Positions 1 to 43,423 of a stretch of DNA of 64,000 nucleotides are shown piece by piece. The position numbers and the translations under genes are program-made. A model generated the notes under the pieces. The model was given only the letters and a program-made list of their open reading frames with translations. It did not search any database and was not told the DNA's origin. Position 1 is the stretch's first letter. The number at the start of each line of letters is the position of its first letter. The DNA is from Candidatus Vecturithrix granuli. Its GTDB lineage: Bacteria > Moduliflexota > Moduliflexia > Moduliflexales > Moduliflexaceae. Location: assembly GCA_000739535.1 (NCBI GenBank), contig DF820467.1:327895-391894 (forward strand), written 5' to 3'.

Positions 1-2
1 GT

Positions 3-3000
3 ACCGGTATCAAAAAAGTAACGCAGGAAACCGAGCATTTTCTGCATTATGTCCACGATCCTGAAAATCCTGAAAGTTTGAGTCACAATGAGATCACTAC
101 CGTATATGCAGATCGTGCGGGAATGATCTGGATCGGAACAGCGTACGGCATGCTGAACCGCTTTGATCCGCAAACCGGAAAATTTCGGCATTATCAGGTT
201 GAACAAGTTGATCCCTATAGCCAGGCGAAAATGAGAATTACGTCAATCTATGAAGATCAATCCGGGGCGTTCTGGATCGGCACCCAGGGGGAATCCGGAG
301 GGAAACGCGCCGGACTCAAAAAGCTTGTCCTGAGCCCTGCCCTGAGCGATGTCGAAGGGGAAGTCGAAGGGTTTGACCCCATAACGGAACAATTTACCCC
401 CTATTACAGCGACCCAAAGGATCCAAACGGCTTGAGTGAGAATAATGTGACGGCCATCTCTGCCGACCATGCCGGAATGCTCTGGATCGGTACGTTTGGC
501 GGCGGTCTCAACCGGTTCGACCCAACCACAGAACAATTTCTCCGCTTCCAAAATGACCCCAACAATCCCAACAGCTTGAGTAATGATAATATCACCACAA
601 TCTATGAAGACAGCGCCAACGTGCTTTGGATCGGCACATTTGGCGGCGGCCTCGACCAACTTGTCCTGAGCGAAGTCGAAGGGCTAGATCGTAATACGCA
701 GCAATTCACCCATTTCCGGAACGATCCTGCTGATTCCTATAGTTTGAGTTATAACTGGGTCAACTCCATTTATGAAGACCGGTCAGGGACGCTCTGGATC
801 AGTACTGGCAATGGTCTCAACAAACTTGTTCCTTCGACTGGCTCAGGACAAGCTCTGAGCGGAGTCGAAGGGTTTAATCGAACGAATAAAAGTTTCATCC
901 GTTACACCCAGAAAGATGGATTGCCCTACAATTCGGTGTACGGGATCCTGGAAGATCCGCAGGGAAAACTCTGGCTCAGCACGCCGAACGGATTGTCACG
1001 ATTTAACCCGCAAACAGAGATCTTTCGAAATTATGACAAGGAGAATGGGCTGCAGGTGCTGCGTTTTAGCCAGGGAGCGTACGCGAAGAGTCAAAGCGGT
1101 GAAATGTTTTTCGGCGGGGTCAATGGATTTGTCAGGTTTTCGCCAGCCCATAACGCACACAAACCTCCGATTGTGCTGACGGATTTTCAAATTTTCAATA
1201 AATCGGTGCGGGTAGGCGCTGATGCGGCAGAAGATGATTCACCCCTGAAAAAGGCGATTACAGAGGCCCAAAATATTGTGTTATCCTATAAAGCAAGCGT
1301 CTTTTCTTTTGAATTTGCCGCTTTGGATTACACTCTGCCGGAAAAGAATCAATACGCCTACATAATGGAGGGCTTTGATAAGGAGTGGGGATACTCCGGG
1401 ACGCGACGGGTGGCGACCTATACCAATCTGCCGGCCGGGGAGTATCTCTTCAAAGCCAAAGGCTCGAATAACGATGAGATCTGGAATGAAGAAGGCGTGT
1501 CAGTCAAGCTCACCATTCTCCCTCCATTCTGGGAAACCCTGTGGTTTCGGGCGCTCATGGTGTTGGGAATTTTAGGAGCAGCGATTAGTATCTTTGAGAT
1601 GCGGGTACATTCAATGAAAAAACGACAAAACATGCTTGAAGGACAGGTCAGGGAACGCACGGCCGAATTAGAATTACAAAAAGAAGCGGCAGAGACGGCC
1701 AACCGGGCCAAAAGCACGTTCCTGGCGACCATGAGTCACGAGATCCGCACCCCGATGAACGGTGTAATCGGCATGACCAATCTGCTCCTGGATACCGAAC
1801 TCACCCTGCATCAGCGAGAATTTGCCGAAACTATCCGTAATAGCGGCGAAGCCTTGCTGTCCATTATCAATGATATTCTTGATTTCTCCAAGATCGAAGC
1901 CGGAAAATTCGATTTAGAATATCATCCCCTGAATGTGCGCGACTGTGTGGAGAGCGCGTTGGACCTGATTGCGAGCAAAGCTGCTGAAAAAGGATTGGAG
2001 CTCGCCTACCTGATAGAGGCCCACGTCCCCATCGCCATTACCGGCGATTTAACCCGTCTGCGCCAAATCCTGCTCAATCTGCTCAGTAACGCTGTAAAAT
2101 TTACTGAGCAGGGCGAGGTCGTGGTGAATGTAACGAGTGAAAGTAATAACCTCACCTCCCATCTCCCTCTCCTGAAAGGTGAGGGGGAGCAAGAACTCCC
2201 CTCTCCTCGTAGGAGAGGGGCCGGGGGTGAGGTCTCTTTGCTCCATTTCTCCGTCCGTGACACTGGCATTGGAATTCCTGAAGATCATAAGGATCGGTTG
2301 TTCCAATCCTTTAGTCAGGTAGATGCGTCAACCAGCCGGAAATATGGCGGCACAGGATTGGGCTTAGCCATCAGCAAACGCTTAATCGAGATGATGGGGG
2401 GAACCATCTGGGTGGAAAGCGAAATCGGAAAAGGTGCCACCTTTCATTTCACGATCCGAGCGCAGGTAGCCGACAGTTCTCCCCCGGCTTATCTCAGCAA
2501 AGAACAACCATCATTACGAGGCAAACGCGTACTGATTGTAGATGATAACGCCACCAATCGCCGCATCCTCACGCTGCAAACGCAAGCCTGGGGCATGCAA
2601 GCTGTGGCAGCCGCCTCTGGCGCGGAAGCGTTGAAGCTGCTTCGTCGAGAACCTTCTCTTGATCTGGCTATCCTGGATATGCATATTCCTGAAATGGATG
2701 GCTTGACCCTGGCCGAGAAGATCCGGCAGGAGCCAGGGTTGCATGAATTGCCCTTGATTATGTTAACCTCGTTAGGACAACATGAAGAGGAGGAGGACGC
2801 GCGTTTGCGTGAATTCGCGGCCTTTTTGATGAAACCGGTCAAGCCTTCGCAATTGTACAATACGCTCAGTGACGTACTTGCAGGAGAATCCAGGAAAAAT
2901 GGAACACGGAGGGAAATCCCGGCCGAAGACCTGGGCTTTGATCCGACTCTGGCCCAACGCCTGCCCTTGCGGATTTTACTGGCTGAAGATAATTCCACCA

Positions 3001-3734
3001 ACCAGCAATTAGCTCTGCTGACTTTAGAACGCTTCGGGTATCGCGCTGATGTGGCCGCCAATGGGCTTGAAGTCCTGGAAGCTTTTCGAAGTCACCCTTA
3101 CGACGTTATTTTGATGGACGTACAGATGCCGGAGATGGACGGCCTCGTCGCCACCCAGCATCTTCGTCAGGAATTTCCGCCTGAACAGCGGCCCTATATT
3201 ATTGCCGTGACTGCGAACGCCATGCACGGCGACCGCGAACGCTGTTTGCAGGCTGGGATGGATGAGTATATCAGCAAACCCTTTGAAGTTCGAGAACTGC
3301 TGCATGCATTGGAACAGAGTCAATATGGAAGGAAACCTACCCCTGGCCCCTCCCAGGAGGGGAATGAGACAGGATCGCAAGCTACAATCCTTGATCCCGC
3401 GGCGCTTACACGCTTAAAGGCCACGCTCGGTAAACGAACAGCAACGCTGCTGCCGGCGCTGATCGAGAATTTCTTCAAGGATGCGGTCAGATTACAAGAT
3501 GAAGCGCGACGGGCCTTTGAAACTCAGCAGGCTGAAGAGTTTCGGCGGGCGGCGCATACCTTGAAATCGCTCAGCAAGAACTTTGGAGCAACCGCCTTCG
3601 CGGAACTGTGTCAGGCATTGGAAATCCAGGCTAAAGATGGGATTTTTGAAGGTACTGAGGATTTGTTCACGCAGATTGAGACTGAGTATAAAAAAGTTCG
3701 CGATGCATTGAAGAAGTTACGAGAAAATTTGTAG
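3..3734 (+). CDS. Hybrid sensor histidine kinase, propeller type (5' end outside window)
   Basis: The reading frame is open to the left edge, so the start lies outside; the TTG at 78 falls inside a repeat. In order: two-component-regulator propeller repeats ([14 protein letters not shown] pattern, to about residue 350), a Y_Y_Y-type beta domain, one membrane segment near residues 515-535, HisKA with the H box [11 protein letters not shown] near residue 579, HATPase with DTGIGIP and [10 protein letters not shown], receiver 1 (LIVDDN, phosphorylatable D in [10 protein letters not shown]), receiver 2 ([17 protein letters not shown]) and a C-terminal HPt ([13 protein letters not shown]). This is a complete membrane phosphorelay that probably senses a periplasmic ligand through the propeller. 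Repeat-derived peptides interrupt three propeller units, the ATPase domain and the last linker. Its 3' third is copied at 11520-12556. Confidence 0.93.
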
Positions 3735-11519: not shown

Positions 11520-12556
11520 CTGCACGACCTGCCCTTGATTATGTTAACGTCTTTCTTGATGAAACCGGCCAAGTCTTCGCAATTGCAGAATACGCTCAGA
11601 GAAGTCTTTGCCGGAGAATCAAGGAAAAAAGGAGCACCCCAGGGAATCCCCGCAGAAGACCTGGGCTTTGATTCCACCCTGGCCCAACGCCTGCCCTTGC
11701 GGATTTTGTTGGCTGAAGATAATTCTACCAACCAGCAATTAGCCCTGCTGACCTTAGAACGCTTTGGGTATCGCGCCGATGTGGCCGCCAATGGGTTGGA
11801 AGTCCTGGAAGCCTTTCGACGCTGCCCTTACGATGTCATTTTGATGGACGTGCAGATGCCGGAAATGGGCGGGATCATCGCCACGCAGCGTCTTCGTCAG
11901 AAATTTCCGCCTGAGCAGCAGCCCTATATTATCGCCGTGACTGCGAACGCCATGCACGGCGACCGCGAACAGTGCTTGAAGGCCGGGATGGATGAATATA
12001 TCAGCAAACCCTTTGAAGTTCGAGAACTGTTGCATACGCTGGAACAAAGTCGAACTGGAAGGCAGCCCGCCCCTATCCCCTCCCAGGAGAGGAAACTCAC
12101 CTCTGTGCCCTCCTTTCGACAGGCTCAGGACATCGTCCGAGGAGGGAAATCCACCCCTGGCCCATCCCAGGAGGGGAATGAGGCAGAAACTGGTAATCTT
12201 CAATCCTCGATTCTCGATCCTAAGGCACTCACACGCCGAAGGTCACCCTCGGTAAACATGCTGACGAAATGCTGCCGGCTTTGATAGAGAGTTTTTTCAA
12301 GGATGCTGTCAAATTACAAGACGAGGCGCAGCAGGCCTTTGAAGCGCGTCAGACTGAAGAGCTTCGGCGGACGGCGCATACATTGAAATCGCTCAGCAAG
12401 AACTTTGGAGCGACAGCCTTAGCGGAACTGTGTCAGACATTGGAAACCCGGGCTAAAGATGGGGTTTTTGAGGGTGCAGAGGATTTGTTAACCCGGACTG
12501 CCGCTGAATATGAAAAAGTCCTCAATACGTTAGAGAAGTTACGAGAAAATCTGTAG
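11520..12556 (+). pseudogene. Duplicated receiver-HPt tail of the first hybrid kinase (broken)
   Basis: The DNA from about 11527 matches 2746-3734 closely (same motifs [43 protein letters not shown]). Compared with the parent it lost most of receiver 1 (MLTS joins directly to FLMKP), lost one base near 12237 so that the HPt continues in another frame from 12269, and carries a longer repeat insert in the linker (12062-12190). MDG of receiver 2 has become MGG. No start codon with a ribosome-binding site serves it. It is best read as a segmental duplication that has decayed. Confidence 0.85.
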
Positions 12557-13520: not shown

Positions 13521-13649
13521 AATATTTGGTAGTGGTTGAATAGTAAGTGATGCCCGCTCGTTGAGCGAAGTCGAAACGAGCCGCTCACTGTTCCCTTCGA
13601 CTTCGCTCAGGGAACGCATCACGTACCATGTAACCACTACCTAATATTT
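13520..13649. mobile_element. MITE-like element, family A copy 1, with 8-bp target duplication
   Basis: The element spans 13528-13641. Ends are GGTAGTGGTT and AACCACTACC. It is flanked by the direct repeat TAATATTT (13520-13527 and 13642-13649). Two inner hairpins (GCTCGTTGAGCGAAGTCGAAACGAGC type and GTTCCCTTCGACTTCGCTCAGGGAAC type) fill the centre. It has no coding capacity. The duplication overlaps the zwf stop codon. Confidence 0.8.
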
Positions 13650-15340: not shown

Positions 15341-15471
15341 GATAAATGGGTAGTGGTATCCTGTACATGATGCACGTTCCCTGAGCGAAGTCGAAGGGAA
15401 CGCCTGCGTGCTCGTCTCGACTCCGCTCGACGACCGGTCATCATGTACAAGGTAGCCACTACCGATAAATG
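15341..15471. mobile_element. MITE-like element, family A copy 2, with 8-bp target duplication
   Basis: The element spans 15349-15463 with ends GGTAGTGGT and GCCACTACC, flanked by GATAAATG at 15341-15348 and 15464-15471. Its core holds GTTCCCTGAGCGAAGTCGAA with its mate and a CTCGACTCCGCTCGACGA hairpin. It lies 120 bases upstream of zwf. Confidence 0.82.
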
Positions 15472-27359: not shown

Positions 27360-27490
27360 TTTAAGTCGGTAGTAGTTAAATGGTAAATGATGCGTTCCCT
27401 GAGCGAAGTCGAAGGGAACAATGAACGGCTCGTTTCGACTTCGCTCAACGAGCAGGTAATCACTGACTATTTCAACACTACCTTTAAGCC
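27360..27490. mobile_element. MITE-like element, family A copy 3, with 8-bp target duplication
   Basis: The element spans 27368-27482 with ends GGTAGTAGTT and AACACTACC, flanked by TTTAAGTC (27360-27367) and TTTAAGCC (27483-27490), 7 of 8 identical. The core carries GTTCCCTGAGCGAAGTCGAA and CTCGTTTCGACTTCGCTCAA. It sits in the promoter region of the AraC-type gene. Confidence 0.78.
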
Positions 27491-42383: not shown

Positions 42384-43199
42384 AGATGTTCCTCCTATAA
42401 ATTTGTAATGGTGTTGTGTTCGTCTGAGACATCCCAACACGCCTGCCAGCCCAACTCCCAGAAGCAGCAATGTGGACGGTTCAGGCACCTCGCCAGGCTC
42501 ACCGCCGCTTCCGCCGCTCATAGTTTGATAGGTCAACTGCACCTGTACGCCGGGTACCTGCTGTACGCTGCCGAGCAGCACATACTGGTCGTCCTGCGTC
42601 AGCAGCACGACCAGATCATCCTGATCGATCATGACCTCAGTCACGGCCTGTATGTCAAGTGCTTTCAGCATGTCTTCCGTGACGGCCTCGAAATCTGTAT
42701 TTTCCAGTACGGTCATGCCCTTGATCTGTTCGGCGACGACGGTCAACGGTCGGTCCGCATTGGCACTGAATCCGAAATACAGATCAATTTCAGGACTGAA
42801 CTCGAACAACGGATCGATCTGCGGGGCGGCAATGGCCTCGATCTCCTGGCCGTCGCCGATGATGAGCGTCAGCACCGTGGGGTCGAGCTCAGTCATGCCG
42901 CTCGTGAGGTCGAATCCGGCGTAAAATGAAATGGTGGTGGTCGTAAAACTGGTATCGGCCACAGCTGTACCGGTGCTCTCTCTCGCAAAGCTCGCAGAAA
43001 ATTGATCTCCAGGGGCTTTGCGTCTTTGCGGACTTTGCGAGAAACTGAAAAAATTATTCAATGATGACGTTTGAATGTGCGCACAAACGTCTTTGCATAT
43101 CGGCGGGCAGAAAAACACCGGCATGGTCTCATGCCGGCTGCCAGAAAAGAAGCGTGTCTTTTTCTGGCAGCCCGGCGATCTTCGTGAAGACAACACCAA
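42384..43199 (-). pseudogene. PEP-CTERM protein, 5'-truncated and lacking a stop codon
   Basis: Recognisable protein begins near 42977 (TSFTTTTISFYAGFDLTSG) and ends with a PEP-CTERM signal EVPEPSTLLLLGVGLAGVLG followed by CLRR, which is the exosortase sorting tag of Gram-negative bacteria. The N-terminal part translated from 43199 is derived from a CGCAAAGTCCGCAAAGACGC-type repeat and has no signal peptide, so the true 5' end has been lost. After CLRR the frame runs on without stop through the ribosome-binding site into the protease gene at 42383. A short duplicate of its middle lies at 38330. Confidence 0.7.
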
Positions 43200-43423
43200 G
43201 ACCCGTAGCTTTCCGTCCCCACCTCACGATGGGTTTGGCTTTATCAGAACAACACATTTGGGATTATCTGATTGTGGATACAGGTATTGCAAAATACGCG
43301 CCAGAAAGAGGTTTGGAGGTAAAAAGACATGGAGAGCGGCGCGTCTCTGCGTGAATACTACAATGAAAGAGCGAAAACGCACCTCTGGAAAACGAAAAAG
43401 ACAACGAGCGTGTTGACGAAAAA

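Follow-up and report, generated by a model that had tools for sequence, protein, structure and literature searches.

Three blades of a single sensor propeller carry similar peptides at the same place, which raises the question of whether these residues belong to the protein or to repeat DNA that has entered its gene, and if the latter, how it came to the same site three times. The peptides are encoded near the start of a 64,000-nucleotide stretch of the Candidatus Vecturithrix granuli genome, here called the window, and the original prediction described them as the product of a selfish repeat tolerated where it keeps the reading frame. In the reading we consider highly probable, the peptides are translations of a 24-bp interspersed repeat, inserted independently at the equivalent site of three blades and tolerated there.

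The kinase gene and its inserts

The gene and the repeat-derived segments associated with it are listed below.

1..3734, plus strand: hybrid histidine kinase gene, recognized by Pfam domains, catalytic motifs and the match to BT4663 (4a2l)
324..371, plus strand: insert 1, blade 9, 48 nt, peptide LVLS[PALSDVEG]EVEG
336..359, plus strand: inner module of insert 1, CCTGCCCTGAGCGATGTCGAAGGG, recognized by sequence
660..683, plus strand: insert 2, blade 11, single module CTTGTCCTGAGCGAAGTCGAAGGG, peptide LVLSEVEG
825..872, plus strand: insert 3, blade 12, 48 nt, 16-residue peptide
2149..2233 (about 2149-2240 by residue numbers), plus strand: insert in the HATPase domain, in frame and from a second family of palindromic repeats, recognized by inverted repeats and a gap in the 7p8e alignment
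3336..3368 (approximate), plus strand: in-frame remnant of the second family, a 10-residue peptide in the linker before Hpt
12111..12135, minus strand: module-like sequence SFRQAQDIVRGG in a truncated kinase paralogue (ORF 11535-12284)

The kinase gene starts at C17:326955, 940 bp upstream of the window, ends at 3734, and encodes a complete protein of 1,557 amino acids in an open reading frame. Its Pfam matches comprise Reg_prop repeats, Y_Y_Y, HisKA, HATPase_c, two receivers and Hpt, and the H-box, N-box, G-box, receiver and Hpt motifs were all found. Fourteen blade motifs correspond to two seven-bladed propellers. This two-propeller Reg_prop sensor architecture is common to the kinase and the BT4663-type hybrid two-component sensors (4a2l/4a2m), and the periplasmic sensor of BT4663 was the closest solved structure in a sequence search. 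BT4663 lacks the module, whereas three blades of the window kinase are longer by 8-16 residues. The inserts occupy blades 9, 11 and 12 of the second propeller, and blades 8, 10, 13 and 14 are empty. The possibility of a foreign gene bearing foreign repeats was rejected, since codon usage is host-like (among 49 genes of 3 kb or longer, its deviation ranks at the 18th percentile) and the best foreign homologues are roughly matched in closeness by paralogues from the same genome.

The repeat unit is 24 bp long, CNTGTCCTGAGCGNAGTCGAAGGR, and is translated as LVLSEVEG. As originally proposed, repeat DNA is present in all three propeller units, and always at the same position: after GLKK, GLDQ or GLNK, and before FD, LD or FN. 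The inserts measure exactly 48, 24 and 48 nt and share both strand and codon phase. Searching the window for CTTGTCCTGAGCGAAGTCGA at up to three mismatches returned five matches, against 0.01 expected from shuffled sequence. Insert 1 consists of CTTGTCCTGAGC, CCTGCCCTGAGCGATGTCGAAGGG and GAAGTCGAAGGG (12+24+12 nt); its outer halves (324-335 and 360-371), once joined, are identical to insert 2 at 24 of 24 positions, and the inner module occupies the exact centre of the outer one, a copy of the module nested in its own kind. The junctions of insert 1 are unambiguous and cannot be slid, and therefore nothing was duplicated upon insertion. Insert 3 is a forward module broken by an inverted copy, with ambiguous exact junctions. 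This composite is the only one to fold, with a predicted hairpin of -15.7 kcal/mol (z -5.1); the single 24-nt module is not a palindrome and has a minimum free energy of 0 kcal/mol.

The proposed course of events would begin with three insertions of CNTGTCCTGAGCGNAGTCGAAGGR, in the same strand and codon phase, at the equivalent site of three blades, and later a module would have entered the middle of one copy (insert 1) and an inverted module another (insert 3). The module is free of stop codons in five of its six frames, and these open frames, together with the length of 24 nt, would allow each insertion to add eight residues without loss of frame. Both the keeping of the frame and the tolerance of the inserts are well supported; the gene carries at least five repeat-derived inserts and its frame is still open. 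The insert in the HATPase domain is built of CCCCTCTCCT/AGGAGAGGGG inverted repeats and corresponds to residues 716-746 of the frame, about 31 residues between HATPase strands; it is absent from 7p8e, to which the kinase matches end at 715 and restart at 747, and similar DNA occurs intergenically elsewhere. The remnant before Hpt is related to a longer form in the kinase paralogue at 12040-12200. About 8 kb downstream of the gene, at 11535-12556, the window contains a truncated and frame-broken copy of the kinase C-terminus (81% identity over 188 residues).

Independence and structural setting of the insertions

The prediction expected homologous kinases to lack the inserts, and this proved correct. 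The alignment of 36 homologues covers other phyla, paralogues from the same genome and a relative of the same family, and for this small lineage the comparison genomes include three relatives of the order, one of them of the family. All three insert sites are empty in 36 of 36 aligned homologues, nearly all of which display a clean gap between GLxx and FD, and none of the 59 loci that encode kinase relatives in other genomes has these peptides in the gene, homologues from unrelated genomes included. The peptide LEFTEVSG of the paralogue L129 was considered as an older, decayed copy of the module and rejected at 12/24 nt identity.

Propellers are known to grow by duplicating blades, and a single insertion carried to the other blades by such duplication, or by gene conversion, would fit the orientation and phase common to all three modules as well as the identity between insert 2 and the outer module of insert 1. 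This explanation is largely refuted, and we regard it as very improbable. The flanks of the three sites are identical at only 11-14 of 24 positions (46-58%), every insert-bearing blade is nearer to an insert-free blade than to another insert-bearing one (for blade 9 and for blade 11 the nearest is the empty blade 10), blade 12 finds its match at the equivalent position of ten homologues, and the homologues with the same blades are insert-free. Since no insert-bearing blade has another as its closest relative and the flanks of the inserts share so few positions, sequence comparison indicates three independent events, and duplication of one filled blade is unlikely.

An AlphaFold2 model of the propeller, built from 43 aligned sequences, has seven blades with a mean pLDDT of 83.5 and a pTM of 0.84. 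The inserts are placed between the outer strands C and D, and each takes the place that an empty blade fills with the last part of strand C and the turn leading to strand D (168-173 and 178-182 in blade 10). Two segments have pLDDT below 50 (116-128 and 282-292), and inserts 1 and 3 lie within or next to them; insert 2 is part of a block with a mean of 67. Low values are expected here because the inserted residues have no homologues. The model supports the view that the inserts form loops, giving a loop and no structure for the loop itself, and so agrees with the surface-loop placement originally suggested. It is likewise supported that they lie in an exposed hairpin region where changes of length are tolerated. 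The outer-side C-D hairpin of the blade would accommodate the inserts, which may be why selection has not removed them.

By chance 0.03 hits would be expected per gene, and the probability of three or more is about 4e-6 before correction for some 1,700 genes. Such clustering at one site of one gene could also mean that the peptide is selected, with loop extensions that alter sensing or partner binding and a repeat that has been co-opted. Other, unrelated extensions in the same region of the homologues L129, L150 and L164 speak for this; the low-confidence loops with no predicted structure speak against it, as do the two further repeats in unrelated domains of the kinase, which suggest tolerance. 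We give selection of the peptides little credence. Tolerated insertion would instead leave the peptides with no function of their own, the shared site being accounted for by target preference combined with structural tolerance. The codon just before the inserts is AAG, CAA or AAA in the filled blades, and an arginine codon stands at the corresponding site of each of the empty blades 8, 10, 13 and 14; this hint in the sequence of a target preference is suggestive only, because AAA, CAA or similar codons also occur there in empty blades of the first propeller. Local copying within the kinase gene is also possible, given that the genome has only four loci with the module.

Copies in this genome and in others

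The genome amounts to 8.38 Mb in 21 contigs, in an assembly of metagenome type with stretches of N and an estimated contamination of 10.75%, which counts somewhat against the reading favoured here. The core CTGAGCGAAGTCGAAGG occurs in it 280 times at up to two mismatches, against one occurrence of the reversed control, and most core copies in the sampled part of the genome belong to longer elements. One type, roughly 110 bp long, contains two opposed hairpins and has ends that are inverted repeats (GGTAGTGGTTAAATGGTAAGTGATGC...); the other is a short pair of hairpins. The 12-nt hairpin loop, GAGCGAAGTCGA, is constant, and the arms vary yet stay complementary (mean stem 4.66 bp against 1.34 bp in shuffled sequences, with a maximum of 1.92 in 1,000 shuffles), which indicates that the stem itself is conserved. 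Three such elements lie in the window.

13529..13640: copy of the MITE-like element, with 24-nt terminal inverted repeats that are 83% complementary
15350-15460: copy of the MITE-like element, with GGTAGTGG ends
27370..27485, no strand assigned (nor for 13529..13640): intergenic MITE-like element with GGTAGTGG-type ends and two opposed hairpins, loop GAGCGAAGTCGA

The last of these includes the spacer at 27395, which had been taken for the same DNA as the inserts. That identification did not survive: the spacer is a different element of about 110 bp, with other arms and terminal inverted repeats, and shares with insert 2 a core of 19 nt, CCTGAGCGAAGTCGAAGGG. Rfam searches gave no match for the three MITE-like elements and no RNA family at the insert sites. 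Elsewhere in the window, at 43162-43248 on the minus strand, there is a c-di-GMP-I-GGC riboswitch (E 3.5e-15).

Per base, the DNA between genes holds about 38 times as many hairpin elements as the genes do, as counted over 2.45 of the 8.38 Mb with a simple codon-based gene caller. Some are nonetheless in frame, in an HmaA-like helicase, a UvrD-type protein, a TIR-NACHT-like protein, a type ISP/IIG restriction enzyme and a membrane protein. The repeat-bearing genes (C19:255189, C21:412701, C14:250075, C18:372536 and C19:319356; the types are HmaA-like, HmaB-like, type ISP/IIG restriction enzyme, TIR-NACHT-FGE-like and UvrD-like) are mostly associated with defence or DNA processing. A TIR-NACHT-FGE-like protein has SGVEG x5 in its linker, encoded at C18:374926-374997 by five tandem 15-nt copies of the core, and a similar run is found at C13:104452.

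Beyond the kinase gene, hardly any copies in the genome have the CTTGTCC arm, and the kinase-type module occurs at four loci only: the kinase, its truncated paralogue, an FAD oxidoreductase and a DUF1156 methylase. In the oxidoreductase (C7:31366) the module is in frame in the opposite orientation and reads FDKAQDK, within an eight-residue excess over 3fg2. The methylase has two copies in an open frame (C21:413533 and C21:415012), which stay candidate insertions because a PDB search with this protein gave no match. The known 24-nt copies of the genome, small in number, are all in coding or formerly coding sequence, in contrast to the longer hairpins, as would be predicted of a frame-neutral unit.

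Among 385 diverse genomes, 16 contain the module and none the reversed control; some, G276 and G347 for example, are rich in it. The boundaries were defined on 48 copies, mostly from other contigs, and all have the same 24-nt limits, CNTGTCCTGAGCGNAGTCGAAGGR. A purine stands immediately to the left of the unit (position -1) in 44 of the 48, the target pattern being otherwise weak, and four lie at palindrome centres, against 0.3 expected and a maximum of three in 2,000 shuffles. The copy at L251:2200-2220 is inserted precisely on the dyad of a palindrome, GTAGGGGCGCAATA/TATTGCGCCCCTAC, that resembles a REP of the GTAG type. Another copy, L253:10534-10554 (IMGVR_UViG_3300025679_000110), is in frame in a Reg_prop propeller fragment, GISVFNPSVK[PVLSGVEG]LGTGSKKITNY, where it occupies a C-D turn after an AAG codon; it adjoins a terminase-like gene, on a metagenomic contig that is possibly chimeric.

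From the constant ends, the two orientations, the self-nesting and the distribution over genomes with an empty control we infer that the module is mobile. It would move as non-autonomous repeat DNA that joins just after a purine, frequently within a palindrome loop, and duplicates no target; neither an enzyme nor an excision event was found that ties the module to mobility. How it moves may be answered in two ways. Transfer as single-stranded DNA by an HUH/Y1 transposase (RAYT- or IS200/IS605-like) would suit the missing target duplication, the one-sided purine preference and the insertion at palindrome centres and in the middle of a module of its own kind, and the genome encodes 12 Y1_Tnp loci as well as two RAYT-like proteins that pass the REP_Tyr_transpos cut-off (C16:206208 and C18:825695). 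Against it, no related repeats or loops, and no pair of inverted copies around a rayt gene, were found within 1.5 kb of the two best RAYT-type loci, repeats lie near three of the 12 Y1 loci, about as chance would have it, and the module has no GT[A/G]G head; we entertain this route tentatively. Spread by template switching during replication or repair, with no transposase, would agree with so short a unit, with the preference for palindrome centres, with the tandem expansions of the 15-nt core and with the inverted copy within a forward one. The constancy of the 24-nt boundaries across many genomes points rather to a defined unit, and we hold this alternative to be somewhat doubtful.

Relation to known repeat systems

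Palindromic elements of Rickettsia, of about 150 bp, are found in frame in unrelated proteins and also between genes (PMC10969869). The likeness drawn to them at the outset stands in respect of in-frame insertion: a peptide is added and the gene is not broken (PMC10969869), and insertions absent from homologues are present here in both the kinase and the oxidoreductase. It fails in respect of the palindrome, since a single module neither is one nor folds; the module further differs in its length of 24 bp, its lineage and its occurrence at equivalent sites of a repeated domain. The in-frame insertion of repeat DNA into an otherwise normal propeller kinase is likewise borne out.

Intragenic REPs of the GTAG/CGTC families are small repeats in open reading frames whose dimers encode 20-30 amino acids; several may be inserted in one frame, and recB of two Xanthomonas species was hit at approximately the same site (PMC3733652). 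A bias towards DNA repair has been reported for them (PMC3733652), and the repeat-bearing genes described above echo it. The module differs from these REPs in having no GTAG/CGTC tag, no palindrome in the single unit, a length of exactly 24 nt and self-nesting; it starts with CNTGTCC, and no GT[A/G]G head is conserved at the ends of the 48 copies. Like elements of the IS200/IS605 type, it generates no larger target-site duplication, as seen in insert 1. The resident spacer element resembles MITEs in its terminal inverted repeats and high copy number, whereas the module within genes has neither terminal inverted repeats nor target duplication.

In-frame repeats in bacterial proteins are thus already known, from Rickettsia and from REPs, including repeated hits and hits at the same site. 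What is new here is a frame-neutral unit of 24 nt, non-palindromic alone, nested in itself and recurrent at one site of a repeated domain; neither its peptide nor its DNA strings occur in the open-access literature searched, a scope that leaves supplements and closed journals aside. It is conceivable, albeit rather unlikely, that the module stands for a separate class of mobile repeats, ultra-short and present in diverse bacterial lineages, which enters hairpin loops and purine-ended sites with no target duplication and, by repeatedly lengthening the same hairpin of propeller sensors, acts as a natural mutagen for eight-residue loop insertions. The kinase allows the insertion of repeats into proteins to be seen as countable events, with a fixed unit, exact junctions and an order in time given by nesting, and with a single structural site that was hit three times independently and is still empty in dozens of homologues. 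Should the unit be mobile, it would add eight residues at a time and leave frames intact, and would let the reshaping of proteins by repeat DNA be tested directly.
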